Assembly: GCA_005883085.1 (NCBI GenBank)
Contig: VBAY01000047.1
Coordinates: forward strand, 1 to 40,588
Reading direction: 5' to 3'
Length of the DNA stretch: 40,588 bases
Source of the DNA: Candidatus Bathyarchaeota archaeon
GTDB taxonomy: Archaea; Thermoproteota; Bathyarchaeia; 40CM-2-53-6
In this document: piece by piece, positions 15,918 through 35,800 of the stretch
Layout of the letters: each line of letters starts with the position of its first letter
Numbering within the stretch: position 1 is the stretch's first letter
Notes under the pieces: model-generated
Seen by the model: the letters and a program-made list of their open reading frames with translations, nothing else
Database searches by the model: none
Told to the model about the DNA's origin: nothing
Made by a program: the position numbers and the translations under genes

Positions 15918-16711
15918 CTACTCGTACCTGACACGAGGGTCCACAATACCATAGAGAATGTCAGAGACCAAGTTGGCCGCTATGACGCACAGAGCAATTA
16001 TGTAGAACATGGCTTGCATCACCGGAAAATCCTTGTACAGTACCGCAGTGTACAACCACAATCCCAGTCCATCCCAGTTGAAGACTGTCTCGGTGATAAT
16101 TGCTCCTCCGAGTATGGATCCGAAAGAAAGAGCGCTGGCCGTGATCAGAGGGAGAGAGGCATTCTTGAAAGCGCCCAGAGACTAGGAGTAACGCTACCAG
16201 GAGGAAACCAGTGAAACGTCAGAGCAAATGCAAAGATCAAGAGTATGCCCATGAAGAAAGTAGGAAGCGAGAACGTGGTGAGAGACCCTGTGACCATGAG
16301 ATTATCCAACGAGCTGCCACGTCTTCGAGAAACGACGATACCTAGTAGCGTTCCAATGACAATGGAAAGCACGGTTGAGGTTCCCAGCAATAGCAATGTG
16401 TTGAACAACCGGCCCGAAGAAACTATTAGCTCGCTTACCGGGAGGTTATCCTTATACGAATATCCAAACTGGAAAGTTAGCAAGTTCCGAACGTACGTCA
16501 CAAACCTCGTCCAAGGATCACCGGTTAGCCCGTACAAGGCGATCTGCTGATTACGTTGCTCCGTTGACAATCTTGGATTTGCAAGAACGGTATACAAGCT
16601 TCCTTGATACCCAGGCATGGCTTCGAAAATTACGAAGTTCAAGACAATCACAAAGAACACAAGGACGACTGTGTACACGATTCTCTTGGCCAGAAACCCA
16701 CGTAAAGTCAA
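15918..16711 (-). pseudogene. ABC transporter permease (DppB/OppB-like), frameshifted with internal deletion
   Basis: 188-aa ORF (MTLRGFLAKRIVYTVVLVFFVIVLNFVIFEAMPG..GSVTPSLWALS) changes frame near 16170-16190 into a second frame reading AFKNASLPLITASALSFGSILGGAIITETVFNWDGLGLWLYTAVL..DPRVRYE*. The usual central region and start of the EAA loop are missing. Confidence 0.85.
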
Positions 16712-16750: not shown

Positions 16751-17296
16751 TTGAGGCTTGCCGTTGGGTTTAGCAGTCGTATCCGCCTAGCGGATAGGCT
16801 GAACCGCAGCCTGCTGTGCTAGCCGGTGTGAGAGTTGCTGAACCCTCGTGCAGTGTTGGTGGGAACGAGGCTATGCCTGTTGGTGGAGTAGTGGGCCAAG
16901 CGAACGGCTGGACCCAGTTGACGCCCACGAATCTCGACACGATGCCGATCTGTGGAACATCAACCTTTGTAGCTGCTCCGTTAACATCACCGCCTATACC
17001 CTGCTGCCAGTGACCGCAGCCCGTAGAGCCACCTGTCACCGCTTGCCCGACACACCGGGCGACAACGCTGAAGTTGATGAAGTCATGTGTGAAGTCGCCG
17101 TTGTTACCAGACCAGGCCCAGAGAGCCAGAGCACCGTTGCTGTGGAAGTACGAGTCGGTCAAAGACGAGCCCGGCGCATGACCTAGACCATACCGCGCCA
17201 GAGTGTAGCTGCCCCCAATATCAGGGTTCTGAGTTCCATCGGCCTTGGAATCGCATCCAACACCTCTAACTCCGGTGGAAGACTGGCACACCCAAG
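16751..17296. repeat. Direct repeat copy 1: 3' end of SBP gene plus flank
   Basis: Appears identical by eye to 19694-20239 (offset 2943). Confidence 0.9.
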
Positions 17297-19352
17297 GTCC
17301 CGAGCCTTTCACAATTCCGTTCAGCAGTGGATCATAGCCTGGCTGAATCTTAGCTGGGTCAGCAACATTGCAACTGTTAGGAACGTTACGAGCAGCCACA
17401 AAGCCATCCCAGATAGTGCCAGCGCAACTCGCAGACCAATATCGTCCAGGTATGACCGTTGGAGATGTAAGAGTCAACCTAGTGAACGGCCCCACAGCGT
17501 TGAGGTTGACGTCAAACTGTGTCGGACTCAACACGGTAACATCGGTCATGGGCGCTAGAACAGTACCTTGGAACGCGCCTGTATCTTTTAATGTCCGGAA
17601 GCTAAACTTGACATCCCAGCTTGTGACTTTCGTACCGTCATGCCAGAATAGATCATTTCGAAGACTGAAACGGAATGTCGAAACAGTTCCCGGAGGTGGC
17701 TGATAGGTGAGTTCCGAATTGCTCAATTGCAAACTGTTGACGGTCATCCACTCAATTAGCTGACCGTTTGACGAAGGGTTCGCAATGTTAATGCTGTCGT
17801 AGATGTTGGCGATGATGTAAAAGTCCCAGACCGTATTTGCACGGTAGGGATTGAGACTCTGGGTACTCTGTTTGAAGCCTTGCAAGATCGTGCCCGATTG
17901 TGCTGGGGTAGCCGAGTAGGCACTCAGCCAAGTGTTGAAGTTGGCTATCCCGTTACCTTGATGGTTGACGACTCTCTGCCAGTTGCTCAGATACCCGAAC
18001 TGACTCTTCGGAGTGAACAAGGGCACACTCAGTGCTTTGCTACCTGCTCTGTCTTCTGCTCTATAGCCTGCACTGGTTGACGATGGAGTAGTCGTGCCTG
18101 GACAGTTAGCGAACGTTGGAGTCACCTGACCTGGAGTAGGATCGCCAGGGGCGCTGACGCACGAAGCGAACTCCATCTGAGTAGCTAGAGAATCAAAAGT
18201 CGTATCGCAAATGTACTGATAGTTTCCGGCACCAAAGCTTGGAACAGCTAGGTTCGAACAAGGCCCGCTGGGAGGCTGGATGGAGGGAATTCCCGAAACG
18301 AATCGGCTCTGGTCTTGGAAATAGACGAAATCGAAAGGATAAGCGCCTTGGAAACCCGCGGTATACATGTTCCAGTTCTGATTTACACCCGTTGTGCTAG
18401 TAGTGAAACCGGTGAACCCAGTAATTGGACCAGAAGTCTCTGTAACATAGGGCGCGCAACCTCCGGTGAAAGCGCCTGTGAAGAGGGCACACAAAGCCTC
18501 GACGATACTCTGCCCTGCTTGGTACCGAGGCGGGTCATCTATTCTATCATACATATTCACTGTATGAGCGCTTACAGCAGCGTTGATTCCGGTAAGGATG
18601 CATGTGGTCGGGTTCTTACCTGTTGCAAGATTCGCGTGGATGAAGTGGTCTGCTGCAGCACAAAAGTCAGGTGTACCCAATCCTGGAGTCCAAGCGAAAG
18701 TCGGATGAGAAGGCCCAACTCCCGCGGTCGCAGCTGCAAGATGGTACGCTAGACCCCCAGCGGCACCAACCACACAGGCTGGACCAGACTGAGGAAACAG
18801 CGCATCCCAAGCACACGGATTAGGAGAGACAAGCCCGTCGCTAGGAGGAATACCCACGTCAAGTGGGATAGAAACACCTGCAATGTCAGCTTGAGTTGTG
18901 ACAAATGTGTTCTTGTCAATGAGATGGGCAATTCCTTGCCGAACATCGATACCGCAGGCAGAATTGGTAAAGCTGAAATCACAACCCCAGAAGTTGTTGC
19001 CATTGTGGAACTCTATCTCGTCAAAGTCATGGCTTGAAATCGGGGATGTAACAAAGAAGCCTGGATTACCGCTAAGAGAGGCTGTCAACGTGGGGGGAAG
19101 AGGCCAATCAGTCAGATCGATCGTCTTTGCCTGAATATTGTTGAACTCGGAAGCCTGGTCTGCAAAGATCACAGTTACCAGCGTGTCCATTGAAGGACCT
19201 GATGGATACCAAGGCTCGGTCGGCGCCGCGTTCGCATGCGCTAGCTGAACGGCCGGCAGGTGAAGGGTACTGGACGAGAAGGCTGAAAGCCCAGTTAGAG
19301 AGAACGCGACTGCGAAGAGCGTCAGTAGCCTAAAGGTGGACAAGCTTTTCAA
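16770..19352 (-). CDS. ABC transporter substrate-binding protein (SBP family 5), atypical domain order
   Basis: 860 aa with signal peptide. SBP_bac_5-like motifs STFRFSLRNDLFWHDGTKVTSWDVKFSFRTLKD and DVRQGIAHLIDKNTFV. Confidence 0.85.
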   Translation of the reverse strand: MKSLSTFRLLTLFAVAFSLTGLSAFSSSTLHLPAVQLAHANAAPTEPWYPSGPSMDTLVTVIFADQASEFNNIQAKTIDLTDWPLPPTLTASLSGNPGFFVTSPISSHDFDEIEFHNGNNFWGCDFSFTNSACGIDVRQGIAHLIDKNTFVTTQADIAGVSIPLDVGIPPSDGLVSPNPCAWDALFPQSGPACVVGAAGGLAYHLAAATAGVGPSHPTFAWTPGLGTPDFCAAADHFIHANLATGKNPTTCILTGINAAVSAHTVNMYDRIDDPPRYQAGQSIVEALCALFTGAFTGGCAPYVTETSGPITGFTGFTTSTTGVNQNWNMYTAGFQGAYPFDFVYFQDQSRFVSGIPSIQPPSGPCSNLAVPSFGAGNYQYICDTTFDSLATQMEFASCVSAPGDPTPGQVTPTFANCPGTTTPSSTSAGYRAEDRAGSKALSVPLFTPKSQFGYLSNWQRVVNHQGNGIANFNTWLSAYSATPAQSGTILQGFKQSTQSLNPYRANTVWDFYIIANIYDSINIANPSSNGQLIEWMTVNSLQLSNSELTYQPPPGTVSTFRFSLRNDLFWHDGTKVTSWDVKFSFRTLKDTGAFQGTVLAPMTDVTVLSPTQFDVNLNAVGPFTRLTLTSPTVIPGRYWSASCAGTIWDGFVAARNVPNSCNVADPAKIQPGYDPLLNGIVKGSGPWVCQSSTGVRGVGCDSKADGTQNPDIGGSYTLARYGLGHAPGSSLTDSYFHSNGALALWAWSGNNGDFTHDFINFSVVARCVGQAVTGGSTGCGHWQQGIGGDVNGAATKVDVPQIGIVSRFVGVNWVQPFAWPTTPPTGIASFPPTLHEGSATLTPASTAGCGSAYPLGGYDC

Positions 19353-19693
19353 GCTTATCAGCTAGCGACTCGCAACGTTTGACCGTAAAAAGCTATCTAC
19401 AATTTTCCGCCAGAAATGAATCCCCCGCATGATTGAGATATTCATGGAACGCTTCGAGATTCCATGTATGTCTCGCGGAATCGCTTCAAAATGGCAAGAA
19501 AGAAGGAGCAACCCCATCTGCGGACAAGCTATCTACTGCTCTCGGGGCAATCCTTTGATTCACATCCGCCCGGAAGTTTTGTCTGCCTGGCGTCTACCTT
19601 GAGTAAGTCGGCCGTCGGCAACATGTGAGCCTACAACGTTCGGATCATGCAAGGGCCGAGAGTTGAGTGGGTAAGAAAAATAAAAGGGGGTTT

Positions 19694-20239
19694 TTGAGGC
19701 TTGCCGTTGGGTTTAGCAGTCGTATCCGCCTAGCGGATAGGCTGAACCGCAGCCTGCTGTGCTAGCCGGTGTGAGAGTTGCTGAACCCTCGTGCAGTGTT
19801 GGTGGGAACGAGGCTATGCCTGTTGGTGGAGTAGTGGGCCAAGCGAACGGCTGGACCCAGTTGACGCCCACGAATCTCGACACGATGCCGATCTGTGGAA
19901 CATCAACCTTTGTAGCTGCTCCGTTAACATCACCGCCTATACCCTGCTGCCAGTGACCGCAGCCCGTAGAGCCACCTGTCACCGCTTGCCCGACACACCG
20001 GGCGACAACGCTGAAGTTGATGAAGTCATGTGTGAAGTCGCCGTTGTTACCAGACCAGGCCCAGAGAGCCAGAGCACCGTTGCTGTGGAAGTACGAGTCG
20101 GTCAAAGACGAGCCCGGCGCATGACCTAGACCATACCGCGCCAGAGTGTAGCTGCCCCCAATATCAGGGTTCTGAGTTCCATCGGCCTTGGAATCGCATC
20201 CAACACCTCTAACTCCGGTGGAAGACTGGCACACCCAAG
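19694..20239. repeat. Direct repeat copy 2: 3' end of SBP gene plus flank
   Basis: Appears identical by eye to 16751-17296; divergence begins right after GACTGGCACACCCAAG. Confidence 0.9.
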
Positions 20240-22304
20240 CGCTTGAGCCTATCACTAGACCGTTCAGTAGCGGGTCATAGCCTGGCTGAATCTTAGCATT
20301 GTCCGCGGTCATGCAGCTGTTCGGTACGCTGCCCGCAGCGATGTCATTGTCCCAGGCCGCGCCTGCACATGTCCCAGACCAATATCGTCCGGGGATGATT
20401 GTTGGTCCGGTGAGGGTCAGCTTGGTGAACGGTCCTACAGCGTTGAGGTTGATGTCGAACTGTGTCAGACTCAACACGGTAACGTCGACCATTGGGGCCA
20501 AGCCGCTACCCTGGAATGAGCCTGTGTCTTTCAATGTTCGATAGCTGAACTTGACGTCGTAGGAAGTCACCTTGCGACCATCTTGCCAGTACATGTCGTT
20601 CCGGAGAGTAAACCGGAATGTAGACACGGTACCAGCAGGAGGCGTGTAGCCTAGTGCGGAGTTGTCGAGCTGCAAGCTGTTCACGGTCATCCATTCGAGA
20701 AGCTGACTGTTGCTGAGCGGGTTGATGGCGTTTATGCTATCATAGACGTTGCCGATCATGAAGAAGTCCCAGATTGTACTGGCTATGTATGGGTTGAGAC
20801 TCCTTGTTGTCTCCTTGAAACCTTGTCGTATGGTTCCTGCCTGAGCAGGGTTCGGACTGTATGCGCTGAGCCAAGTGTAGAAGGTGGGGATGCCGTTACC
20901 TTGATGGTTGACGACTCCCTGCCAGTTGCTCAGATACCCGTACTGCGCCTTTGGCGAGAACCAAGGTATCGTGTACGCTCTACTACCTGCTCTGTCTTCT
21001 GCTCTATAGCCCGCACTGGTTGACGATGGAGTAGTCGTGCCTGGACAGTTCGCGAAGGTTGGAGTCACCTGACCTGGAGTAGGATCGCCTGGCGCACTGA
21101 CGCACGAAGCGAACTCCAGTTGTTGGCCGAAAGTGTCACCCACCGTGTCGCAGATGTACATGTAGTTGCCAGCGCTGAAACTTGGAACAGCTAGCGAGGA
21201 GCATGGTCCGTTGGGAGGCTGGATAGAAGGTACTCCCGAGACGAACTGGCCGTGGTGCTGGAAGTATAGGGCGTCGAATGGGAACACGCTACCGTAACCA
21301 GCAGTGTACTCGTTCCAGTTCTGGTTGACACCAGTTGGACTGGTAGTGAAACCAGTGAAACCAGTAATCGGACCTTGTGTCACTGAAACGAAGCCTGCGC
21401 AACCCTGGCTGAACGTGCCCGTAAAGAGGGCACACTGAGCCTCAGCTATGCTTAGGCCTCCTTGGTATCGGGGCGGGTCGTCGATTCTGGTGTACATGTT
21501 CACAACGTGAGCGCTAACAGCGCCACTGATGCCAGTGAGGACACATGTGGTCGGGTTCTTACCTGTTGCAAGATTCGCGTGGATGAAGTGGTCTGCTGCA
21601 GCACAAAAGTCAGGTGTACCCAATCCTGGAGTCCAAGCGAAAGTCGGATGAGAAGGCCCAACCCCCGCGGTCGCAGCTGCAAGATGGTACGCTAGACCCC
21701 CAGCGGCACCAACCACACAGGCTGGACCAGACTGAGGAAACAGCGCATCCCAAGCACACGGATTAGGAGTAGGCAGTCCGAGACTCGGAGGAAGAGCGTT
21801 GTCGATTGGGAGCGAGACTCCTGCAATGTCAGCTTGAGTGGTCGTCAGAATGTTCTTGTCGAGCAGATGAGCGATTCCCTGTCGAATGTCGATACCGCAG
21901 GCAGAATTGGTGAAGCTGAAATCGCAACCCCAGAAGTTGTTGCCATTGTGGAATTCTAGCTCGTCATAGTCGTGGCTTGCAATTTGCGGCGTGACGAAGA
22001 AGCCATTGTTACCGCCGAGTGATGTGATCAGAGCTGGAGTTAGTGGCCAGTCGCTTACGTCGACCAAACCGGCCTGCATCTGCGTGAACTCAGCGTTTTG
22101 GTCTGCATAGATCGTGCTTACGAGTGTGTCGAAAGCTGGACCTGCCGGTATCCATGGCACGTTCGGGGCCGTGGCTGCGTGGGCTAGCTGAACTGATGGA
22201 AGATGTACGTTGCTAGAAAGTGCACCTGGAAGACTTGCGAAAGAGAAAACGACAGCAAAGACTAGCGTTAGTTTGATTATAGATATGTCTTTCAATTTTT
22301 CCAA
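19713..22304 (-). CDS. ABC transporter substrate-binding protein (SBP family 5), paralog of 16770..19352
   Basis: 863 aa, collinear with the neighbour and identical in the C-terminal part. Confidence 0.85.
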   Translation of the reverse strand: MEKLKDISIIKLTLVFAVVFSFASLPGALSSNVHLPSVQLAHAATAPNVPWIPAGPAFDTLVSTIYADQNAEFTQMQAGLVDVSDWPLTPALITSLGGNNGFFVTPQIASHDYDELEFHNGNNFWGCDFSFTNSACGIDIRQGIAHLLDKNILTTTQADIAGVSLPIDNALPPSLGLPTPNPCAWDALFPQSGPACVVGAAGGLAYHLAAATAGVGPSHPTFAWTPGLGTPDFCAAADHFIHANLATGKNPTTCVLTGISGAVSAHVVNMYTRIDDPPRYQGGLSIAEAQCALFTGTFSQGCAGFVSVTQGPITGFTGFTTSPTGVNQNWNEYTAGYGSVFPFDALYFQHHGQFVSGVPSIQPPNGPCSSLAVPSFSAGNYMYICDTVGDTFGQQLEFASCVSAPGDPTPGQVTPTFANCPGTTTPSSTSAGYRAEDRAGSRAYTIPWFSPKAQYGYLSNWQGVVNHQGNGIPTFYTWLSAYSPNPAQAGTIRQGFKETTRSLNPYIASTIWDFFMIGNVYDSINAINPLSNSQLLEWMTVNSLQLDNSALGYTPPAGTVSTFRFTLRNDMYWQDGRKVTSYDVKFSYRTLKDTGSFQGSGLAPMVDVTVLSLTQFDINLNAVGPFTKLTLTGPTIIPGRYWSGTCAGAAWDNDIAAGSVPNSCMTADNAKIQPGYDPLLNGLVIGSSAWVCQSSTGVRGVGCDSKADGTQNPDIGGSYTLARYGLGHAPGSSLTDSYFHSNGALALWAWSGNNGDFTHDFINFSVVARCVGQAVTGGSTGCGHWQQGIGGDVNGAATKVDVPQIGIVSRFVGVNWVQPFAWPTTPPTGIASFPPTLHEGSATLTPASTAGCGSAYPLGGYDC

Positions 22305-22444: not shown

Positions 22445-23806
22445 TTATGGCAGGTCGGTGTCCAAAGGGCGCTTTCTCAAGAAACGGGATCCCGCAATAC
22501 CGGCTCCAACTAAAACAAGAAGTGAGATCCCAGCAGACGGGAGGAGGCTCAAGCTTAGGCCCGCAGGCAACGGAGATACTAGCTGAACAAAGATTGATTT
22601 GAGATTATTAGTTAAGACATCTTCGATGATGTTGCTATAGTTCCCGGGCTTTCTCACGTAATCCACGAAAGCATCAATGCGATAGACTCTCGGGCTGTAT
22701 TTGTCTGTCTTCCACTGGGCCGTGAATTCCTTTCGGTTAGTCGGGAGCAGGCCGTGAAAAGTTGTGTTTCCAATGAGGCGCCCCTCCACGCTTATGGTCA
22801 AATTCGCCTCTTCAGTCCTTGTTCCGTTGTTCAAAACCCGCGCAGTGACCGAAATAATAGTGCCTGGTATGACTCCAGCGTCATCGTTAACTGTCGCCGA
22901 GTCAACGGCCAAATCAATCAGATTGTTGATTACAATGATACGCTTGGTCTTGGATGCTGAAACCCCGTAGCTGTCGTCTGCTCTGACAGTGACGTAATAC
23001 GGTTTCCCAATGCTGTAGACGTGGATTATCGTTGCGTTTGAACCCTGCTGGCTTGGATCCGGGTTTCCCCAAATCCAATAATAGTTACTAATAGATCCGC
23101 CCGAGTTCGTGGATCGAGCGGACGCGTTGAAGATGAGCACTCTACCTTGGAGCAGTTCGTTGCCGGTTATCGCAAGGTCAGCGGGAGTGGGGGATACTGT
23201 AAAGTCAACGATAGGTGGAGTGCATGGTGTGCCTGACGTAGGAGGGCAGTCGATATTGGTGAAATACCCGTCAGAGCTAACGGAAGGCAATTCTGTCTGG
23301 TCTAATCCAGCAGTCAAGGTTGCCGAGCGAAAGTGAATCTCGGAGAACCCGCTTCCGAGAATGTCGAATGTCACGTCGAAAAGTTTTCCGCTGGTTGGTG
23401 GCATTGTCGTTGCGGTGAGCAATACGAGCCCGAGAGCGACTACTCCTGCCTGGTCTTCCCCGCCGCATGCTGGCCCATGAGTATCTACGCAATCTCGCAC
23501 CACTGTTGGCTTGCATGAATCGGCTCCCGATGGGCAGAGAACGTTGCCACCATAATCGAGGCCACCAGGTGGCAGAACAGCGCGAAGCACGAGAATGTTG
23601 TATGTAAGCACGACCGCAAAACCATTGATTGCAGGGGCGTCCGTTACATTCACAGTGAACGTAACCTGTCCTGCGGTCTCTCCTAGGAGGAACTGGTTTG
23701 GAGGATTTATCGCGATTTTAGCAGAATCCGCAGCGTGCGCTTGCGGTGTCCCCGGAAACAAGTGGCCGAGGTATGGGTTGCTAGAGAGTGCTAGAATCAT
23801 GATCAT
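22445..23806 (-). CDS. Cell-surface protein: cohesin-like domain, PKD-like and CARDB-like domains, C-terminal TM anchor
   Basis: 453 aa; INGFAVVLTYNILVLRAV...GVVALGLVLLTATTMPPTSGKLFDVTFDILGSGFSEIHF is cohesin-like. PKD-like SGGSISNYYWIWGNPDPSQQGSNATIIHVYSIGKPYYVTVRADDSYG. C-terminal TM then RKRP. Confidence 0.75.
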   Translation of the reverse strand: MIMILALSSNPYLGHLFPGTPQAHAADSAKIAINPPNQFLLGETAGQVTFTVNVTDAPAINGFAVVLTYNILVLRAVLPPGGLDYGGNVLCPSGADSCKPTVVRDCVDTHGPACGGEDQAGVVALGLVLLTATTMPPTSGKLFDVTFDILGSGFSEIHFRSATLTAGLDQTELPSVSSDGYFTNIDCPPTSGTPCTPPIVDFTVSPTPADLAITGNELLQGRVLIFNASARSTNSGGSISNYYWIWGNPDPSQQGSNATIIHVYSIGKPYYVTVRADDSYGVSASKTKRIIVINNLIDLAVDSATVNDDAGVIPGTIISVTARVLNNGTRTEEANLTISVEGRLIGNTTFHGLLPTNRKEFTAQWKTDKYSPRVYRIDAFVDYVRKPGNYSNIIEDVLTNNLKSIFVQLVSPLPAGLSLSLLPSAGISLLVLVGAGIAGSRFLRKRPLDTDLP

Positions 23807-24043
23807 GAGGGTGATGGAGGCTAGCCTTAGCTCTCTTACGCCAACGCTCGTTTCTGGCTCTCCACCGTCAGCTTTGATGATTCAAGGTCTGCAACGGCCG
23901 GGGGTCTTAAAAGTTTATCCCGAAAGAAAACTAGACGGATGAAATATTTTGATGGAGGTTTTCGTTTGACACGGGATTTTTCACGAGTCAATCTTTCCCC
24001 ACGAACTTGTAAGAGCGATTTTTCACAGACTACGGGGCGAGCC

Positions 24044-25795
24044 CTATGTTGTGATTCCGTAGTTCCGAGCCGCGACGCCCGCGTCTACGATGTCAACTAT
24101 GCCGTTACCGTTCAGATCGGCGTACGGGTTCCACCTCGAGCATCCGCAATTATGGCTGAACCCGTAGTCATAGAAGATGACTGATACGTCTATCAGGCTG
24201 ACGAGACCATCCTGGTCTATATCACCCAGGGGCAGGATCCAAACCTGGTTCGTGACACCCAAGGGGTCGTCCCCTCGGTTACCGACACTTTCTATCGGTA
24301 CTGTTACAGTTGCCGATAACGCGTAGCGGCCGGGTTTGAAGCCTGTAGTGTTCCAGCTGAAGACGACGCTTGTCGAGCCGCCGATAGCAACATTCCCGGC
24401 CAGCGTGCCGATACTGGAACTGGTAGTATTCATAGCGGTGAGAGTAACTGAGAACGACTCCACAAAATCTCCGGGGTTGCTCACGGTGACTGTGATATTC
24501 ACAACAGGGTTGGCATACTGAGGTACAGGAGCGTACTTCAACGGTGTAGGATATTTCTTGCATGGCTGCGCGCAATTGAGAGGTGCGACGGTTGAGATCT
24601 TCACGTCATGGACCGGGGAGACAGGACTGGAATTCAGCGCCCAGATATCAAAGTCCACAGCGTTAGGACGATCTGAACGGATGAACACCCAGATAGACTT
24701 GTCAGTTGGGGTATTTGACTGAATCGCGGCGGGATTATCATCGTCAACAGGGTAGGCATCGTTCGTTATCTGTGATTCAGTGGACCAAGTACTGCCATTG
24801 TTAGTAGAAAACTTGCTGTAGATCGCCCAGGCCTCCTGATTCACTGGACCCTGAAGCCTCGCCCAGAACAGCCAGATAGTCCCGTTTCGATCCTGCATGA
24901 TCGACGGATGAGCATCAGGCATTGAAGAAGAGACGACCTGTGATTCCGTCCCCCATATTGCCCCATTGTAGGAGTTGTAGAACAGCTGAGAGTTGCTTTC
25001 CGCAGTCGCGCGCTCTTCCCAGACGAGCCTTAGAATCCCATCCTTGCCAACCATCACAGAGGAGCCGTCGTTCAAACTAGTATTAGTCGTCAGCTTCGTA
25101 TCCGGAGACCAAGCGCCATTCCTGACCGTCTTGTAGTACAGCTGATCTTTGAACGTACATGTTGTGGTGCAAGTTGTGTTCTGCCTACTCCAGAAGAGCC
25201 AGAGTGTACCATCTCTGGCCACAGTGGCTGATGGAGCCGTATCGTTGAGGTTGGTGGAAGTTAGCTGGATCCTATTCGACCAGAACTCGTTACCGTACTT
25301 GTCCACATGGTATTTTTCGTAGACGATCTTGTAGCTGTTCCCGATGAGTGAAGACCAGAACAAGATTACAGTGTCGTTGGCAAACTGGGCCAGCGCTGGG
25401 GAGGCATTGTTACCCGTCGAAAATAGATTCACGTTCGTTAAGTTAACTGGATTATTCCAGAGGCCCCCCGTTCGCGTCTTGTAGAAGATGTCGAATTTTG
25501 GAAAAGACTGGTTGAAACGACTTGACTGCCACGCCATCCAGAGGGTACCGTTCCTTGCTTGGAGAACGCTTGGAAGGAGATCCAGTCCAGGAGACTGATC
25601 GACCCGTGTCGGACCAGTCCACGTGTATGGTGGACTCGCACTAACCATATGGATAGACTCTGGAACAAGCGCTACTGAAAGGATTACGATGCTAATCGCT
25701 AGGAATGATGTCTTGCTGTTAGCTCCCATATTGTGATCACTTCTGTGGGGAAACCTCGCCGATAAGCGCAACCAGCTCAGGATTTCTTTACACAA
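24044..25795 (-). CDS. Secreted beta-propeller (BNR/sialidase-like) protein with CARDB-like domain and C-terminal dockerin
   Basis: 583 aa (start may be Met at ~25729). Repeated DGTLWLFWSR / NGTIWLFWAR blades; C-terminal GDIDQDGLVSLIDVSVIFYDYGF..ADLNGNGIVDIVDAGVAARNYG (two dockerin Ca-binding repeats). Confidence 0.85.
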   Translation of the reverse strand: MCKEILSWLRLSARFPHRSDHNMGANSKTSFLAISIVILSVALVPESIHMVSASPPYTWTGPTRVDQSPGLDLLPSVLQARNGTLWMAWQSSRFNQSFPKFDIFYKTRTGGLWNNPVNLTNVNLFSTGNNASPALAQFANDTVILFWSSLIGNSYKIVYEKYHVDKYGNEFWSNRIQLTSTNLNDTAPSATVARDGTLWLFWSRQNTTCTTTCTFKDQLYYKTVRNGAWSPDTKLTTNTSLNDGSSVMVGKDGILRLVWEERATAESNSQLFYNSYNGAIWGTESQVVSSSMPDAHPSIMQDRNGTIWLFWARLQGPVNQEAWAIYSKFSTNNGSTWSTESQITNDAYPVDDDNPAAIQSNTPTDKSIWVFIRSDRPNAVDFDIWALNSSPVSPVHDVKISTVAPLNCAQPCKKYPTPLKYAPVPQYANPVVNITVTVSNPGDFVESFSVTLTAMNTTSSSIGTLAGNVAIGGSTSVVFSWNTTGFKPGRYALSATVTVPIESVGNRGDDPLGVTNQVWILPLGDIDQDGLVSLIDVSVIFYDYGFSHNCGCSRWNPYADLNGNGIVDIVDAGVAARNYGITT

Positions 25796-25950
25796 CTTAT
25801 AAGACTTCCTTGAATTGGAGACGCGTCCGGATAGATGTCGTGCTCTCTGGCAGTATGTTTGTTGCTGGAGGTTGAACCGGTTATATCGTGCGGAAACAAC
25901 TCTGAGGAGAAGAAAAGAAAGAGGGGATTTGAAACTCGTTACGGGACTTG

Positions 25951-28458
25951 CTAACTCGTGACTGTAAGTGTGCCGCTGCTCGGGACGTTGCCTAGTACGC
26001 TAGAGGCTGTGAGTGCTGTGGCTGTCAAGCCGTACTGAATCATTGCAGAATAGCTGTATCTTGTGCCGAGGGTACTAGCAGGGAGCGCCGCGGAGAACGC
26101 GAGGTTACTGATGGACTGTCCTGGAAGCAACTGTACCACTATCGATGTAGCTGTGAAAGTCTTTGTGCCTGTAGAGTCGATTCCGATGACCTGGATGCTC
26201 ACGAACAGTGTTGTCGCAGTGTCGAAATTCGTGATTCCAGCTTTGGAGGTGTAGATGCCATTATCTCTGCTGAGTGATACCTTGTGCACTGGCACGAACT
26301 GGATGAACTGTGGTGACGCTGGTACGTGGACGGTCGCGGTCGTGGTGTGCGTTATAGGTCCCGCAATCCCAGTGACGCTAGCAATGTAGTCGCCGGCTGG
26401 GGTTTGAGGTGTTACCCGTACAGTGAGGGTCGTGTGGTTGGGGGTGAAGACGTCTATGAATGTTTGACGCACGGGCACTGAAGCGATAGGGCCGTAGACT
26501 CCACAGTCCGCACATGTACGGACACCGTTGGGGAAGATTATGGTCTGTGGTACCCGTGTTCCGTTGGGGAAGTACACTTGGACGAGGCGGAGCTGCGGGT
26601 TACCCGGAAGCTGTGGGACACGTGTTCTCTCTGGATTTGTGGCGCCGAGGTATGCAACTCCGTTGAACCCGATTTGGAAGTTGGTTGCCGCGAAGCCTCC
26701 GAGACTGGCCAAGTTGATCGTTGAGGTCGCGGGAGTTCCAGGTATGACCGTGAGAGCGGTAGTAACTAGGTGTATCGAAAAGTCGCCTAGTGCGATTGTC
26801 AAGAAGACTCGGTGGGTTATGCTACCGCTGGTAACGCTGATGACGACAGTATAGTTGCCTAGCGCTGAGTTGGCGGTCGTCTCGACCGATAATGTCGAGA
26901 ACACGACGCCGCCTGCGGTCAGCGTAGCTGTCGCGGGGTCGAACCTGGTTACAAGTACGGTTGAGCATGGCGAACAATTGGCCGGTGTATTGGTCCCAGT
27001 TGGAATGACTGTTGCGGAGAAGGTTAGTGGGCCTGCGAATGTTGTTGCGCTGGAGACTTTGATTCCGGAACTCGCGCTTAGACTGGCAAAGGTGATAATG
27101 TGATCTGGGATAGCAGCGAGGTTGAAGTCAGTGCCCGTGATGACAAACGTAACGTCAACGGTATTGGTCACGCCTGCGCTTGTGGCGGTGACTGTGATGT
27201 CATAGGCTGCAAAGTCGGCGGTTGTCGGGATGGTGATTGTCAGGGTGGCTGTGGTGGTTCCGTACGCCGAGAGGGTGACGGAGGCAGGGCTGACAGCGCT
27301 TGTGGGACCGTTAATGTTGACCGCAGTGCTGAATGATATAGTGTCTGCGAAAGCGCTTATGCTGGTGAGGGTAAGGGTGGATGTGCTTGATCCTCCGATG
27401 GGTATGATGAGACCGTTCGCGGGGCTCGCGCTAATGGAAAAGTCTTGTGGAGTGTCCTGGACAACGACGTTTTGGCTATGACTTACTCCAACGGAGCTGG
27501 TCCCGGTCGCCGTTATGACGAAGGTGGGGAATAATAGAATGTCGCCGCCGTTCACGTCAAAGCCGGGGGTCGGATCTGGGGCTGGGCCCGCGGTTAGAGT
27601 GGCCGTAGCCATTCCATTAGCGGGGAGGAAGAGGCTTGGCACGCTGAGCGATACTGCGATAGGTGGTACGGTGGTGCTGCCGATTGGATTGCCGTCCGCG
27701 TCGAAGCTTGGCGGATTGGCGCCTACGCCTGACACAGCGTTAAGGCCGATGGTGTCGGTGAAGCCAGCTTGACTAGTGAGTGTGATGGTGAAGGCGAAGC
27801 TGGAACCTGGCGCAACTGTGGTTGAGTCGGGGGTTACTGCAAAGTTGTAGTCCGCGCCGTGCATGAAGGTGGCCTCCTGAATCGAGACGGGAACTGGAGG
27901 GGCCCCGGGGACACCGTTCGCGATTGTCACACAGACATCTGGGCCTACGCTTGTGCCCGAGCAGCCTGTGTTGAAGAAGATCGGTGTACCGTCTGAGCCG
28001 GCTAGGACTTTGAACACTGCAGTGAACAGTAACCCGTTGGTTGGCGGTGTTGTAGTGGCACCTGCCGTATTGACGGCGGCAAGGTGTACTACTCCGTCAG
28101 CGTCTTGTGGAGCGCATGATGAGCCAGCTTGTAGCAAGCCGTTGATGCAAATGACCAGTGCGCTGAAAGGAATGATGCTGCCTGTGAGATCCGCGCTGAC
28201 CCCGGTGAGGATCGTGGGATCGCTTCTAACCTGAATGTCAAACCCGTTAAGGGCGTCTACTCCTGAAGCTCGAACAGCTATTCTGAGCAAGCCTCCAGGG
28301 GCTTGGTCTAGTGTTGGTGGAAGTGCAGGGCATCCGGTTGTTGATGGATCTGCGAGACATATTTGGCCCGCTGCGTGGGCGTTTGGTATTGCTGGTACGA
28401 CGAATAGGCTTGTAAGTAGCATCAATGGTATGAGGATTACTTTTTCAAGTTTTTTCAA
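25951..28458 (-). CDS. Secreted protein: N-terminal cohesin-like domain plus Ig-like repeats and C-terminal surface module
   Basis: 835 aa, signal peptide; LNGFDIQVRSDPTILTGV...DADGVVHLAAVNTAGATTTPPTNGLLFTAVFKV resembles cohesin; multiple Ig-like repeats (DFSISASPANGLIIPIGGSSTSTLTLTS). Confidence 0.75.
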   Translation of the reverse strand: MKKLEKVILIPLMLLTSLFVVPAIPNAHAAGQICLADPSTTGCPALPPTLDQAPGGLLRIAVRASGVDALNGFDIQVRSDPTILTGVSADLTGSIIPFSALVICINGLLQAGSSCAPQDADGVVHLAAVNTAGATTTPPTNGLLFTAVFKVLAGSDGTPIFFNTGCSGTSVGPDVCVTIANGVPGAPPVPVSIQEATFMHGADYNFAVTPDSTTVAPGSSFAFTITLTSQAGFTDTIGLNAVSGVGANPPSFDADGNPIGSTTVPPIAVSLSVPSLFLPANGMATATLTAGPAPDPTPGFDVNGGDILLFPTFVITATGTSSVGVSHSQNVVVQDTPQDFSISASPANGLIIPIGGSSTSTLTLTSISAFADTISFSTAVNINGPTSAVSPASVTLSAYGTTTATLTITIPTTADFAAYDITVTATSAGVTNTVDVTFVITGTDFNLAAIPDHIITFASLSASSGIKVSSATTFAGPLTFSATVIPTGTNTPANCSPCSTVLVTRFDPATATLTAGGVVFSTLSVETTANSALGNYTVVISVTSGSITHRVFLTIALGDFSIHLVTTALTVIPGTPATSTINLASLGGFAATNFQIGFNGVAYLGATNPERTRVPQLPGNPQLRLVQVYFPNGTRVPQTIIFPNGVRTCADCGVYGPIASVPVRQTFIDVFTPNHTTLTVRVTPQTPAGDYIASVTGIAGPITHTTTATVHVPASPQFIQFVPVHKVSLSRDNGIYTSKAGITNFDTATTLFVSIQVIGIDSTGTKTFTATSIVVQLLPGQSISNLAFSAALPASTLGTRYSYSAMIQYGLTATALTASSVLGNVPSSGTLTVTS

Positions 28459-28699
28459 TACGTATTACCCGTTTTTCCTGCGTGCTTATCGGCATCCACT
28501 CGATATAAGAGTTTTCGATATGTGTATCCTCGTTTATAGCCATGAGACACTTGAGATTGAGGTAGACTTCCCAAGTATTCTTGAAATATACGATCGGTAA
28601 ACAGGCCTGCCTCGAAACGGGCTTGGATGGGGAATCAAGATCGTTTCCGGTAAGATCGAACAGGGGCTTTGTATCGCCGATCTTTTCATGGTCTGGGGG

Positions 28700-30319
28700 C
28701 TAGGACTTGGTTCCAAATGCTCGGGCCGCTATACTGACGTCGATGATGTCGATGATGCCGTTGTTGTTGATGTCACAGTGAGGGTCCCATCGCGAAGGAG
28801 TGGCGGGTGTGAATCCGAAATCATAGAAGAACACTGCTACATCAATAATGGTGACTGAGCCGTCTTGGTCAATGTCCCCCAAGGGAATTACGTGGGTAAC
28901 CCTGGTGAATGTGACATTATTGTCAGCCTGGTTGGGGACTGTCTCGCCAGGAACTGGACTGACGTAGGCGGCGACCGAGTACCATGCGGGCTTCCAGTTG
29001 GTCGTATTCATGCTGAACGATAGATTGACTGTGCCTCCGGGTACTGCAAGGTTCTGCTTCGTTACAGAGTTGTAGGAGCTAGAGTTGTATACGGTGAGGG
29101 CAGCTGTTACTATTTCGCTCTGGTCGCCACGATTAAGGATGGTCGCGGTGAATGAGACGATGGCGCTTTGGCCGATTGACGCGAGCCCGCCTGGGTATTC
29201 GATCTGCGTCGACGGGGTAACCGATGTAATTGTTACATCGTGTATTGGCTGTATCGGGCTGGATATTAGCGCGTAAATGTCCTCGTTTGAGACGGGGTTC
29301 GTTGTGTAGAAGAGCCAGATGGACTTGTTGTAAGTGGACTGGACGCCATATGGCTGCATACTGTCAACACTGGTCGAAGTGTTTGTCATCTGGATTTCTG
29401 CGGACCAGGTTGTGCCGCTGTTGTAGGAGTATTTGGAGTAGAGGAGGTAGTAGAAGGAGAGGCCACTGTAGTAGTGCTTCCTCGACCAGAAGAGCCACAT
29501 TGTCCCGTTCCGATCCTGCATAATCGCGGCATGCTCGTCGGAATCAGTCGAGGCGACAACCTTGGTCTCCGCACTCCAGCCCGCTCCGTTGTATGTCCTG
29601 TAGTATACCTGGTAATTCTCGAGAGATCCTAATCCTTTCGACCAGACTACTCTTACAATGTTGTCTTTGCCAACCGTTATGCCGGAGCCCCAGTTCTGGT
29701 TCGTGTCCGAGGTCAGCTTCGTTTCTGTGGACCAGACTCCTGCTTTCAAGGTCTTGTAGTAGAGCTGTTTAGCAGGATCAGTACAAGAGCCGCTGCAGGT
29801 CGAGTTATTCCTTGTCCAGACGAGCCAGAGAGTCCCATCCCTACCAACAGCAGCGGAGGGATTCGTATCGTTGAGAGATGTGCTCGACGCTTGTAGAGGA
29901 TTTGACCATCCTCCAGGACTGTTGTACATCTTGTAGTAGATGAGATAGCTGGCTGCAGGCTTGTACGCCCAGAAAAGCAGGATAGTTCCGTTCGATAACT
30001 GCGCTAGCGCTGCACCCGCGTTTATCCCACCAGTTGTTAGCCGCGATACTGTCGACCAGACCCCGTTTGTGTACGTCTTGTAGGAGATATCGTACTGGGA
30101 GTCTCCTCTGTACCTGTTCGTTTGCCAAGCCAGCCACATGGTCCCGTTGCTGGCTTGGAGACCTGCGTTCAAAATATTGATTCCCGCGTTGTTCTCGATC
30201 GCCGTAGGGCTTCCCCAAAGGGTAGTGGCAGTGACAGGGTGGAACACCAGCGGGAGAAAGACTAGTCCGGCCACAGACAATAGGACTAGGCAAAGTCCCC
30301 GAAGCGATCGCTTCGTCAA
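28700..30319 (-). CDS. Secreted beta-propeller protein with CARDB-like domain and C-terminal dockerin (paralog of 24044..25795)
   Basis: 539 aa; signal peptide; NGTMWLFWSRK, DGTLWLVWTRN blades; C-terminal GDIDQDGSVTIIDVAVFFYDFGF..CDINNNGIIDIIDVSIAARAFG. Confidence 0.87.
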   Translation of the reverse strand: MTKRSLRGLCLVLLSVAGLVFLPLVFHPVTATTLWGSPTAIENNAGINILNAGLQASNGTMWLAWQTNRYRGDSQYDISYKTYTNGVWSTVSRLTTGGINAGAALAQLSNGTILLFWAYKPAASYLIYYKMYNSPGGWSNPLQASSTSLNDTNPSAAVGRDGTLWLVWTRNNSTCSGSCTDPAKQLYYKTLKAGVWSTETKLTSDTNQNWGSGITVGKDNIVRVVWSKGLGSLENYQVYYRTYNGAGWSAETKVVASTDSDEHAAIMQDRNGTMWLFWSRKHYYSGLSFYYLLYSKYSYNSGTTWSAEIQMTNTSTSVDSMQPYGVQSTYNKSIWLFYTTNPVSNEDIYALISSPIQPIHDVTITSVTPSTQIEYPGGLASIGQSAIVSFTATILNRGDQSEIVTAALTVYNSSSYNSVTKQNLAVPGGTVNLSFSMNTTNWKPAWYSVAAYVSPVPGETVPNQADNNVTFTRVTHVIPLGDIDQDGSVTIIDVAVFFYDFGFTPATPSRWDPHCDINNNGIIDIIDVSIAARAFGTKS

Positions 30320-30464: not shown

Positions 30465-32855
30465 CTACGCGAGTATGGTGAAGCTTCCGCTAGTTCGGAC
30501 GAAGCCGATGGCCGCTGTGCTCTGTTGTGTTAGCGATGTCGGGCTGGTGCCCCAGAGTATCACCATCTGGAAACTGAACGACCTGCCAATGTCCGCGTTG
30601 GTGAACGTCTTCGTCAGGATCAGGTTGGTCAGCAATTGATTTGGCGCGAGAGTGATCACTGATGATGTCAGGGTGAAGGGTACAAAGCCGGCTCCGTCGA
30701 CCACGTTGATCTGTACTTGGGCATAGACGGTTGTGCTGGGATCGGTGTTTTGCAGGCCGAATCTCCATTGCTGCTGGAAGTTATTCTTGGAAAGTTGCAG
30801 GCGCTGCTTCCAGTTGCTCTGGCCAAACGCTGGTGCTGACACCTGTGCACCGCTTACCGTCACATTGACGTTGGTGGAGTGCGTTATTGTCCCGCTCGTG
30901 CCTGTCACGGTCACGATGTAGGTGCCGTTTAGTGAACCCATTACGGTGAGGGTGCTTGAGCCAGACATCATTATACTTGTTGGGCTGAGGGAGGCTGTGA
31001 GTCCCGTGGATGGATTGACGGTGGCCGTTAGGCTGACTGTGCCGCTGAATCCGTTGATGGGGGTGATGGTGATCGTTGAGGTTCCGGTTCCGCCGACGGA
31101 TATGGTGAATGAGGCTGGGCTGGCTGTTATGGTGAAGTCGGGTGTCGTGACATGCAGTGTAATTACTGCGGTTGTGTGGGAGAGCAAGCCGCTAGTCCCT
31201 GTTACGGTGACGGTGTAGTCGCCGTTCGCCGCTGCACTGAGGGATAGGGTTGTGCTGTCGAACCCGCTTGAGAGGACGAGGACGCTCTTGCCGAGAGTGG
31301 CGGTTAGGCCGGCTGACGGGCTTGTCGTAAGCGAGACACTGCCTGCAAATCCGTTGACACTACTTGCGGATATCGGTGTCGTGCATGTTACACCTGGAGT
31401 ACAGTTGACTGTTACCGCCGCGGAGGGTGAAATTGTGAAGTCGTTGAAGTTGAACGTCGCCGTCGCGGAGTGGCTGAGGCTTCCACTGGTGGCCGTGATT
31501 GCAACACTGAACGTGCCGGCTGACGTCGACTTGCATGATACGGTCGAGGTCTGCGGGGACGGTGGCAGTGTTACGCTGGAAGGTGTTACTGAGCAGACAA
31601 GCGGTGCTAGAGCTGTGGCAGAGAGTGTTACAGCTCCTGCAAACCCATTGAGACCGGTGACGGTGACCGTGGAGGACGCGGTTGTGGTCCCATCGGCTGG
31701 AGCCGCGGCTGGCGCGGACGCGCTAATCGTGAAGTCGACCACATGGAATAGGATTGCGGAAGTGGTGTGGGTTAGACCGCCGCTTGTTCCTGTTACGGTG
31801 ACGGTGTAGTCACCAGCAGTTGCAGCGGAGCATGAGAGTGTCGAGGTCTGCGGAGATGTTCCGAAGGTCACACTGGTGGGTGTCAAACCGCATAGTAGAC
31901 CTGTTGGTGTTGAGGCGGACACGGAGAGGTTGACTGTTCCTGTGAAGCTTCCGATAGAAGTTACCGTTATTGTTGAGGTGCCAGAGGCGCCTGCAAGTAT
32001 CTGGGAGGGAGTGACTGCGCTAGCTGAGATGCTGAAGTCCTGTCCTCCGGGTGACACTGCGACGATGACCGTTCGGGTCAGAGTTCCGCTTGTGCCAGTG
32101 ATTGTGACGCTGAAGCTGACGGCACCCGTACATCCCGCAGTTAGGGTTGCGGCGTTAGGTGTTGGGAGAGTGACAGAGGCGGGGGATATGGTGGCTGTGC
32201 ATCCAGCTGGAACGACCGATGTGACGGCTAGCGAGATGCTTCCAGTGAATCCGTTGAGGGCGTTCGCGGATATCGTAGAGGTGCCCGTGTTAGGTGCAGT
32301 GTAGCTGATGCTGGAGGGACTTGAGGTTAGAGTGAAATCGGTTACATGGAAGAGAATTGTTGCCGTCATATGAGATAATGTTCCGTCAGTTCCGGTTACG
32401 ATGACAGTGTAGTCACCTGCTGTTGCTGCGGAGCAGCTCAAGGTTGCTGTTTGTGGGGATGTGCCGAAGGTTACGCTAGCTGGCAACGTGCATGTTAATC
32501 CTGCAGGGGTAGATGCGGATACCGCGAGATTGACGGTTCCGGTCAGGCCATTAATCGCCGTTACGGTGATCGTTGAGGTGCCAGACGCTCCGACCAGTAT
32601 CTGGGTTGGCGATACTGCGCCTGAGGCGATTGTGAAGTCAACGACGTGGAAGAGAATCGAGGCGGTGGTGTGACTCAAGGTTCCATCGGTACCAGTTACT
32701 GTAACGGTGTATTGGCCTGCTGTTGTTGCGGAGCAACTAAGCGTAGCAGTCTGAGGCGATGAGCCGAATGTCACACTCGCCGGGAGGGTGCATGTCAAAC
32801 CGGCCGGAGTGGATGCTGATACTGCAAGTATTGGCCTGCCGTTGTGGCGCTGCAT
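30465..32855 (-). CDS. C-terminal part of giant Ig-like repeat surface protein (frame-disrupted from 32795..40588)
   Basis: 796 aa of ~100-aa repeats plus a distinct C-terminal module. Its first residues (MQRHNGRPI) arise from an out-of-frame repeat junction. Confidence 0.8.
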   Translation of the reverse strand: MQRHNGRPILAVSASTPAGLTCTLPASVTFGSSPQTATLSCSATTAGQYTVTVTGTDGTLSHTTASILFHVVDFTIASGAVSPTQILVGASGTSTITVTAINGLTGTVNLAVSASTPAGLTCTLPASVTFGTSPQTATLSCSAATAGDYTVIVTGTDGTLSHMTATILFHVTDFTLTSSPSSISYTAPNTGTSTISANALNGFTGSISLAVTSVVPAGCTATISPASVTLPTPNAATLTAGCTGAVSFSVTITGTSGTLTRTVIVAVSPGGQDFSISASAVTPSQILAGASGTSTITVTSIGSFTGTVNLSVSASTPTGLLCGLTPTSVTFGTSPQTSTLSCSAATAGDYTVTVTGTSGGLTHTTSAILFHVVDFTISASAPAAAPADGTTTASSTVTVTGLNGFAGAVTLSATALAPLVCSVTPSSVTLPPSPQTSTVSCKSTSAGTFSVAITATSGSLSHSATATFNFNDFTISPSAAVTVNCTPGVTCTTPISASSVNGFAGSVSLTTSPSAGLTATLGKSVLVLSSGFDSTTLSLSAAANGDYTVTVTGTSGLLSHTTAVITLHVTTPDFTITASPASFTISVGGTGTSTITITPINGFSGTVSLTATVNPSTGLTASLSPTSIMMSGSSTLTVMGSLNGTYIVTVTGTSGTITHSTNVNVTVSGAQVSAPAFGQSNWKQRLQLSKNNFQQQWRFGLQNTDPSTTVYAQVQINVVDGAGFVPFTLTSSVITLAPNQLLTNLILTKTFTNADIGRSFSFQMVILWGTSPTSLTQQSTAAIGFVRTSGSFTILA
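32629..32827. repeat. 199-bp block matching 35748-35946 within the array
   Basis: No difference found by eye, offset 3119; both copies end in ATACTGCAA at an aberrant unit junction. Confidence 0.88.
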
Positions 32856-35800
32856 GATAGTGTCGCGGTCTGTGGCGAAGTGCCGAATGTTACGCTGGCG
32901 GGTAGAGTGCAGGTTAGACCCGCAGGTGTAGAAGCGGACACTGCAAGATTGACAGTGCCGGTTAGACCGTTGACCGCCGTTACGGTGATGGTTGAGGCGC
33001 CGGACCCGCCTGCGAGTATCTGTGTTGGGGATACGGCTCCTGCTGCGATTGCAAAGTCAACCACATGGAATAGGATTGCGAAAGTAGTCTGGGTTATGCT
33101 GCCGCTTGTTCCTGTTACGGTGACGGTGTAGTCACCAGCAGTTGCAGCGGAGCATGAGAGTGTCGAGGTCTGCGGAGATGTTCCGAAGGTCACACTGGTG
33201 GGTGTCAAACCGCATAGTAGACCTGCAGGTGTTGAGGCAGACACTGACAGATTGACCGTTCCTGTAAAGCCTCCTTGGGCGGTCAGCGTTATTGTCGATG
33301 TTCCAGACGCACCTGCCAGGATCTGGGAGGGAGTAACAGCACTGGCGGCGATAGTGAAGGTCTGTCCTCCGGGTGATACCGAGATAGTGACGGTTCGGGT
33401 CAGAGTTCCGCTTGTGCCAGTGATTGTGACGCTGAAGCTGATGGCACTCGTACATCCCGCAGTTAGGGTTGCAGTGTTAGGCGTTGGAAGGGTGACGGAG
33501 GCTGGCGAGATCGTGGCTGTGCATCCAGCTGGAACAACCGATGTAACGGCCAACGAGATGCTGCCGGTGAAGCCGTTGAGAGCGTTCGCGGTTATTGTGG
33601 AAGTGCTTGTGTTGGGCGCAGTGTAGGTTATACTGGCTGGACTCGAGGTTAGGTTGAAGTCGGTTACATGGAAGAGGATTGTTGCCGTTGTATGACTGAG
33701 CGTTCCGTCAGTTCCGGCTACGGTGACTGTGTAGTCTCCTGCCGCTGATGCCGTGCACGAGAGTGTCGCAGTCTGCGGAGAAGTTCCGAAGGTGACACTA
33801 GCTGGTAACGTGCATGTCAGACCCGCGGGTGTAGATGCGGACACTGCTAGGTTCACAGTACCAGTCAAACCATTGACCGCGGTTACTGTGACAGTTGAGG
33901 TTCCAGAAGATCCCACTAGGATCTGTGTTGGTGAAACCGCTCCCGCTGCGATCGTGAAGTCTACAACATGGAAGAGAATTGTTCCTGTTGTATGAGTAAG
34001 TGTTCCATCAGTTCCAGTCACTGTTACGGTGTAATCGCCCGCTGACGCTGCGGTGCAGGACAGTGTTGCTGTCTGTGGAGATGTTCCAAATGTGACGCTA
34101 GCCGGGAGGGTGCATGTCAAACCGGCCGGAGTGGATGCTGATACTGCGAGATTGACAGTTCCCGTTAGACCGTTGACTGCTGTGACTGTGATCGTTGAGG
34201 CTCCGGAGCCGCCTGCGAGTATCTGTGTTGGAGATACTGCGCCCGCTGCAATCGTAAAGTCGACAACATGGAACAGTATTGTTCCAGTTGTGTGACTCAA
34301 CGTACCGTCTGTTCCTGTAACAGTTACTGTGTAATCACCTGCGGAGGCCGCACTGCACGACAATGTTGCGGTTTGCGGCGAGGTTCCGAAAGTGACGCTT
34401 GCCGGGAGAGTGCAGGTTAGTCCAGCAGGTGTGGACGCAGATACTGCGAGGTTAACAGTTCCAGTCAGCCCGTTGAGGGCGGTGACGGTTATGGTCGATG
34501 TGCCGGATGCTCCAGCGAATATCTGGGCTGGCAGGACTGCGCCTGCGGCAATTGTGAAGTCGACGACATGGAAGAGTATGGCAGATGTAGTGTGGCTTAG
34601 AGCGCCGCTTGTTCCTGTTACGGTAACAGTGTAATCGCCAGCAGTAGCGCTGCATGATAGTGTCGCGGTCTGTGGAGAAGTTCCGAAAGTGACACTCGTC
34701 GGTGCTAGGGAGCATATTAGACCGGCAGGTGTCGACGCGGACACTGCGAGGTTCACGGTGCCGGTGAATCCGTTCAATGCAGTGAGGGTGATCGTGGAGG
34801 TTCCTGACGAGCCTGCGAGAATCTGGGTTGGGGTGACAGCACTTGCAGCGATGGTGAAGTCGGCTCCTGGACTGACCGGTACAGTTACGGTTCGGGTCAG
34901 AGTTCCGCTTGTGCCAGTGATTGTAACGCTGAAGCTGATGGCACTAGTGCAGCCCGCTGTCAGAGTCGCAGTGTTAGGTGTTGGAAGGGTGACGGAGGCT
35001 GGCGAGATCGTGGCTGTGCATCCAGCTGGAACGACCGATGTGACGGCTAGCGAGATGCTTCCAGTGAATCCGTTCTGAGCATTAGCAGTTATCGTGGAGG
35101 TCCCTGTGTTGGGTGGAGTGTAGGTAATGGTGGTTGGGCTCGCGGTAATGGTGAAGGCGGTCACGTGGAACAGAATCGATGCGGTCGTGTGCGATAATGT
35201 TCCATCTGTTCCTGTGACTGTTACGGTATAATCAGCTGCATTAGCAGCAGAGCAAGACAATGTTGCTGTCTGCGGCGAGGTTCCGAAAGTGACGCTGGCG
35301 GGTAGAGTGCAGGTTAGACCTGCGGGGGTGGAGGCGGAAACTGCGAGACTAACTGTGCCGGTCAAACCATTGACCGCAGTCACAGTGATAGTCGAGGTTC
35401 CGGAGGCCCCGGCGAGGATCTGGGCGGGACTAACAGCTCCGGCAGCAATGGTGAAGTCAACGACGTGGAAGAGAATTGTCGCTGTCGTGTGAGTGAGAGT
35501 TCCATCAGTACCAGTTACTGTGACAGTGTAGTCACCCGCAGCAGTTGCGCTGCATGACAATGTTGCGGTCTGTGGAGATGTTCCGAAGGTGACACTAGCT
35601 GGTAACGTGCATGTTAGACCTGCGGGTGTAGAGGCGGATACCGCAAGGTTGACAGTGCCTGTAAGACCGTTCACAGCGGTCACTGTTATCGTAGAGGTTC
35701 CGGAGGAACCGGCTAGTATCTGGGTTGGCGATACTGCGCCTGCGGCAATTGTGAAGTCAACGACGTGGAAGAGAATCGAGGCGGTGGTGTGACTCAAGGT

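Follow-up and report, generated by a model that had tools for sequence, protein, structure and literature searches.

According to PMC5244752, it is not known what cohesins and dockerins do outside cellulosomes. The non-cellulosomal cohesin and dockerin of Archaeoglobus fulgidus (2xdh) form a working binding pair (PMC9705933), and in ANME archaea dockerins are carried by binding proteins of the OppA and NikA types (PMC9012536). The window analyzed here, a stretch of 40,588 nucleotides that constitutes one contig (C87) of a draft genome (287 contigs, 1.7 Mb, ~78% complete), encodes cohesin and dockerin proteins together, with no cellulolytic partners found. It probably specifies a non-cellulosomal cohesin–dockerin surface system of a soil bathyarchaeon, tied to the adjacent oligopeptide-type (Opp) ABC transporter. 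Soil is the most likely habitat of this bathyarchaeal host, because the named relatives of its dockerin-bearing propellers are from the soil MAGs Candidatus Bathyarchaeota BA_3, BA_24 and BA_25, Crenarchaeota 13_1_40CM_3_52_17, and archaeon 13_1_40CM_2_52_13.

The A. fulgidus system is similar in that it is archaeal, is not cellulolytic, and has the same cohesin fold (2xdh is among the structural matches of the coh1 cohesin model, with a TM score of 0.75, normalized by target), but the bathyarchaeal genomes differ in having many of these domains each, membrane-anchored cohesins, and linkage to an ABC transporter and to proteases. The ANME archaea share the abundance of dockerins and cohesins, the dockerins on NikA/OppA-type binding proteins, and the multi-cohesin proteins (PMC9012536, PMC5244752); they differ in phylum and habitat from these soil Bathyarchaeota, in which an anchored cohesin lies within the transporter gene cluster beside a binding protein, and dockerins are present on S53 proteases and sialidase-fold propellers. 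The bathyarchaeal cohesin profiles best match clostridial type II cohesins (2b59, 4u3s, 5m0y), and at the profile level the Ig-like domain and dockerin of the propeller protein align with the X-module–dockerin dyads of cellulosomal scaffoldins. In contrast to the clostridial cellulosomes, no cellulase partners were found in the bathyarchaea, anchoring is by a transmembrane helix, and the cohesins have a conserved cysteine pair. No earlier report of such a system in Bathyarchaeota was found in the literature searched, in which subscription journals are thinly covered; as far as that literature shows, the kind of system is known from Archaeoglobus and ANME, and the combination and the host are new.

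Cohesin and dockerin genes of the window

All of the main genes lie on the minus strand, from ~40.5 kb down to 11.2 kb, in the order of two Ig-repeat proteins, doc4, coh3, doc2, coh1, two family 5 solute-binding proteins, OppB (interrupted), OppC, a small protein, OppF and OppD. A preliminary description had identified four consecutive minus-strand genes in which dockerin-bearing propellers alternate with cohesins, and these open reading frames are indeed present: doc4 (28700..30319), coh3 (25951..28458), doc2 (24044..25795) and coh1 (22445..23806). The gene and strand of doc2 stand as described, although its start does not, and is probably an ATG within the frame, near 25729 and directly ahead of the signal peptide. 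NCBIfam yielded names for none of the four proteins. We note that the doc2 dockerin and the coh1 cohesin are in the same reading frame.

The 453-residue coh1 product has a signal peptide followed by a cohesin domain (23246..23731), a PKD domain (22940..23176; PKD_4 E 1.7e-4, below the cut-off), a CARDB domain (22661..22918; E 2.6e-4, just below the cut-off), and a C-terminal transmembrane helix (22496..22552; hydropathy 2.03) with the basic segment AGSRFLRKR after it, such that the PKD domain and membrane anchor ascribed to it earlier are both recovered. The Pfam Cohesin model PF00963, which is a detection aid rather than a definition of the fold, has no match in the whole genome at E values up to 10, and structure and profile searches were therefore used. 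A PDB cohesin is the best match of both the coh1-domain family profile (E 9e-5) and the coh3-domain family profile (E 2.6e-4), and the weaker PDB matches of the two profiles are nearly all cohesins. Modeled with AF2 from 43 sequences (pLDDT 93.6, pTM 0.88), the coh1 domain has cohesins exclusively as its best 50 matches in the PDB (best E 3e-8), and what had been termed cohesin-like from motif resemblance thus has a predicted cohesin fold.

The coh3 product is predicted to have a signal peptide, a cohesin domain (27856..28374), Ig-like repeats and a C-terminal surface domain, with no transmembrane helix at its C-terminus. Its N-terminal domain, also called cohesin-like previously, is assigned as a putative cohesin by profile homology to that of coh1 (hhalign 99.3%, E 2.5e-20). 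Almost every cohesin domain in the family contains a cysteine pair (C81 and C89 in coh1), to which the coh3 group adds other conserved cysteines.

Upstream of doc4 there are two genes for Ig-repeat surface proteins, one (30465..32855, minus strand) sharing its C-terminal domain with coh3 and probably associated with the system, and the other (32795..40549, minus strand) giant, located at the contig edge, and of uncertain association. The two open reading frames (796 and 2584 aa, together 30465-40549) overlap in different frames and have mutually similar repeats, and may belong to a single giant gene that a frameshift has divided. The shared C-terminal domain is ~140 aa long, has no Pfam name, and recurs at 25954-26409 and 30474-30926 in the window and in L036 (C58:2935-3348); of these three Ig-type surface proteins, two are cohesin proteins. 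It is possibly a surface-attachment module.

The doc2 and doc4 products are both predicted to be secreted and to consist of a propeller, an Ig-like domain and a C-terminal dockerin (24047..24241 in doc2, 28703..28894 in doc4). The paired calcium-binding loops on which the dockerin assignments were originally made are intact in each, with the sequences DIDQDGLVSLID and DLNGNGIVDIVD in doc2, and DIDQDGSVTIID and DINNNGIIDIID in doc4. The match of PF00404 to doc4 is weak (E 7e-4, 20.1 bits compared with a curated cut-off of 22.9, and 24.7 bits in the genome search), and several of the relatives' dockerins exceed the cut-off. Both domains match PDB dockerins, with E 4e-5 for the doc4 sequence alone and E 2e-12 for the dockerin family profile. 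Among the 1045 open reading frames of the loci analyzed, 16 have a strict two-loop pattern, which is absent from all 20 sets of shuffled sequences. Dockerins of the type I-like kind have two calcium-binding loops with a helix after each; the loops are present in doc2 and doc4, and in the AF2 model of doc4 (pLDDT 86.4) the two helices (residues 491-500 and 525-534) are preceded by the Ig-like domain and a sialidase-fold propeller. GH33 sialidases are recognized by a six-bladed fold, a catalytic arginine triad and a FRIP motif; the doc2 and doc4 propellers have the sialidase-like fold, and no FRIP motif was seen by eye.

The Opp transporter and its association with cohesins

The gene following coh1 encodes a family 5 (OppA-like) solute-binding protein (19713..22304), and the next a second family 5 protein that is 80% identical to it (16770..19352). 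Over their last ~190 residues the two (16770-22304) are nearly identical, which suggests a recent duplication or gene conversion. Beyond these are the OppB permease (15921..16711), the OppC permease (14387..15889; the closest NCBIfam model is Opp4C), the OppF-type ATPase (12304..13260) and the OppD-type ATPase (11250..12290), all on the minus strand. The parts of an Opp/Dpp importer (a family 5 binding protein, two permeases and two oligo_HPY ATPases) are thus all encoded, with oppB interrupted: ~64 codons are missing and the frame changes near 16157-16172, residues 1-184 and 249-332 of the G010 homologue being matched in different frames. The interruption may be an assembly error or a real lesion, and the transporter copy in the window may therefore be non-functional or misassembled. 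A TrmB-family regulator is encoded near the transporter genes (8652-9407); regulators of this family are frequently linked to the uptake of sugars.

The preliminary description had suggested coupling to uptake, and the relatives strengthen this proposal. In 12 genomes a solute-binding-protein gene has a coh1-type cohesin gene immediately next to it on the same strand; the C-terminal hydrophobic stretch of these cohesins is clear except in G015, where its score is lower. In four of the 12 (G004, G011, G012 and G014) the neighboring binding protein itself carries a dockerin; those of G004, G012 and G014 belong to family 5, and that of G011 is a PBP_like_2 protein with a terminal dockerin, its gene lying next to those for an anchored cohesin and a transporter of its own. 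Neither solute-binding protein of the window has a dockerin; a paralogue elsewhere in the same genome (L091, contig C180) is a family 5 binding protein with 39% identity and a dockerin at its end. In G010 the Opp genes and a solute-binding protein share one contig with an anchored cohesin, further cohesins, two dockerin propellers, and a kumamolisin-like protease that bears a dockerin. Coupling to uptake is the best supported functional link of the system, because it is on the solute-binding protein itself that dockerins are found in relatives.

Distribution in related genomes

Within the family, dockerins are present in 15 of 21 genomes (up to 23 per genome) and cohesin-like domains in 19 of 21 (up to 17 per genome). 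The two are strongly associated, with p values that overstate the case because related genomes are not independent and shared ancestry is ignored: with cohesin positions from a listing of the stronger matches, 31 of 89 dockerins are within 4 kb of a cohesin compared with 2.7 expected (p ~1e-24, a count that takes in a few proteins bearing both domains); a C-terminal transmembrane helix is encoded by 32 of 70 cohesin genes versus 3 of 51 dockerin genes (p 7e-7); and the co-occurrence extends to the class, where 44 of 201 genomes have both domains and seven have cohesin only (odds ratio 27, p 4e-18). Membrane anchors belong to the cohesin side.

Mixed cohesin and dockerin clusters are also present in G004, G006, G009, G010, G012, G013 and G014, with arrangements such as doc-coh-doc in G006, coh-doc-coh-doc-coh in G013, and coh-doc-doc-coh in G010. 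Of the gene order that relatives had been expected to share, the mixed cluster and the cohesin–binding protein neighborhood are thus retained, but strict alternation is ruled out as a conserved rule by G010. Some proteins of the family have multiple cohesins (2 to 3 clear copies) and some combine a cohesin with a dockerin, and chains and branches are therefore possible in principle; there is no multi-cohesin protein in the window, and one with two cohesins is encoded on C53 of the same genome (L087).

Dockerins are also found on secreted S53 (kumamolisin-like) proteases in two relatives (L049:2624-4270 in G010 and L080:4843-6489 in G004). The body of the G010 protein matches kumamolisin (E 7e-26), and both proteins have the S53 catalytic motifs E...D and GTS. 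Other dockerin proteins (L079:2070-4235, L096:5859-10388, L049:5096-5998 and L084:3874-5178) are of phosphoesterase, sortilin/PA14, cupredoxin-like (by eye) and NHL/arylesterase-like propeller families, and many dockerin proteins bear PKD, Ig or propeller domains only.

Two relatives have cohesins with no dockerin detected. G016 (92% complete) encodes 13 cohesin-like domains, and neither of two independent models, of which PF00404 is one, detects a dockerin there; its propeller homologue ends short of the dockerin, a search downstream in three frames revealed no diverged or frameshifted remnant, and an anchored cohesin of the coh1 kind is kept beside a binding-protein gene. Either the dockerins were lost from G016 with the cohesins lingering, or the cohesins have a dockerin-independent role. 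At one G016 locus (L086, C45) two double-cohesin proteins flank the dockerin-less propeller, next to Opp ATPase genes. The second relative, G005, has nine cohesins.

Proposed assembly and alternative roles

From the sequences and single-chain models we infer cohesin–dockerin pairing in this genome, and to that extent the interpretation in the preliminary description is supported. In the assembly that we propose, coh1 would be a membrane socket beside the permease, and coh3, which is without the C-terminal helix, would be another socket, either soluble or part of the surface layer, with calcium-loaded dockerins plugging the propellers into these sockets. Dockerin-bearing solute-binding proteins, as in the relatives and the same-genome paralogue, would plug in too, as would the dockerin-bearing S53 proteases of relatives. 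Ligand-catching proteins, along with the proteases in relatives, would be held near the permease such that released peptides or glycans could be captured and imported. Archaeal Opp-type systems can carry either, and the cargo here may be peptides, given the S53 partners and the Opp-type transporter, or glycans, given the sialidase-fold propellers and TrmB-type regulator.

We consider it unlikely that what look like cohesins are beta-sandwiches of surface proteins with a general role in adhesion or glycan binding, not paired with dockerins as socket and plug, the dockerins binding otherwise or merely stabilizing the propellers. In favor of this reading, G016 and G005 keep many such domains with no dockerin detected, the domains are too divergent for PF00963, and they are set among PKD, CARDB and Ig adhesion modules; however, their class-wide co-occurrence and clustering with dockerins, the asymmetry of the anchors, and the natural proteins with both domains or with several cohesins all argue for pairing, and the A. 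fulgidus pair binds (PMC9705933). A surface adhesion or biofilm matrix, with Ig, PKD and propeller proteins cross-linked by cohesins and dockerins and the transporter a mere neighbor, strikes us as distinctly improbable. The giant Ig-repeat proteins at the contig end would fit such a matrix, as would the many dockerin proteins with PKD, Ig or propeller domains alone and the cell-contact role proposed for ANME (PMC5244752), but it accords poorly with anchored-type cohesins beside solute-binding-protein genes in 12 genomes and with the fusion of dockerins to two unrelated binding-protein families.

The components of a cellulosome-like architecture (cohesins, dockerins, and multi-cohesin and adaptor proteins) all exist, and the propeller has a sialidase-like fold, yet we give very little credence to a true polysaccharide-degrading complex. 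Cellulosomes are defined by their cellulase partners, which were looked for and not found, and this system is therefore not a cellulosome. As the preliminary description had indicated for the locus, recognizable glycoside hydrolases are missing: Pfam scanning of ~30 dockerin proteins revealed none, aside from the propellers with a predicted sialidase fold, and the catalytic partners identified are S53 proteases and a phosphoesterase-family protein. For the bathyarchaeal system the term cellulosome should stay an analogy only.

For a cohesin–dockerin surface system tied to the Opp transporter, the gene neighborhood, the anchor asymmetry, and the dockerins on two unrelated binding-protein families point to one candidate answer, that capture proteins are fixed beside the transporter, and this suggests that these archaea assemble surface capture complexes that feed uptake. 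More tentatively, there may be a general archaeal mode in which calcium-dependent cohesin–dockerin plugs fix ABC binding proteins and secreted proteases at the membrane, in lieu of separate lipid or membrane anchors on those proteins. The permease would then be surrounded by a capture complex with exchangeable parts, through which digestion outside the cell is coupled to import. The compact plug-and-socket pairs of these archaea are on offer for biochemistry, and the system would account for the potential of an uncultured lineage of soil archaea to live on protein or glycan debris.
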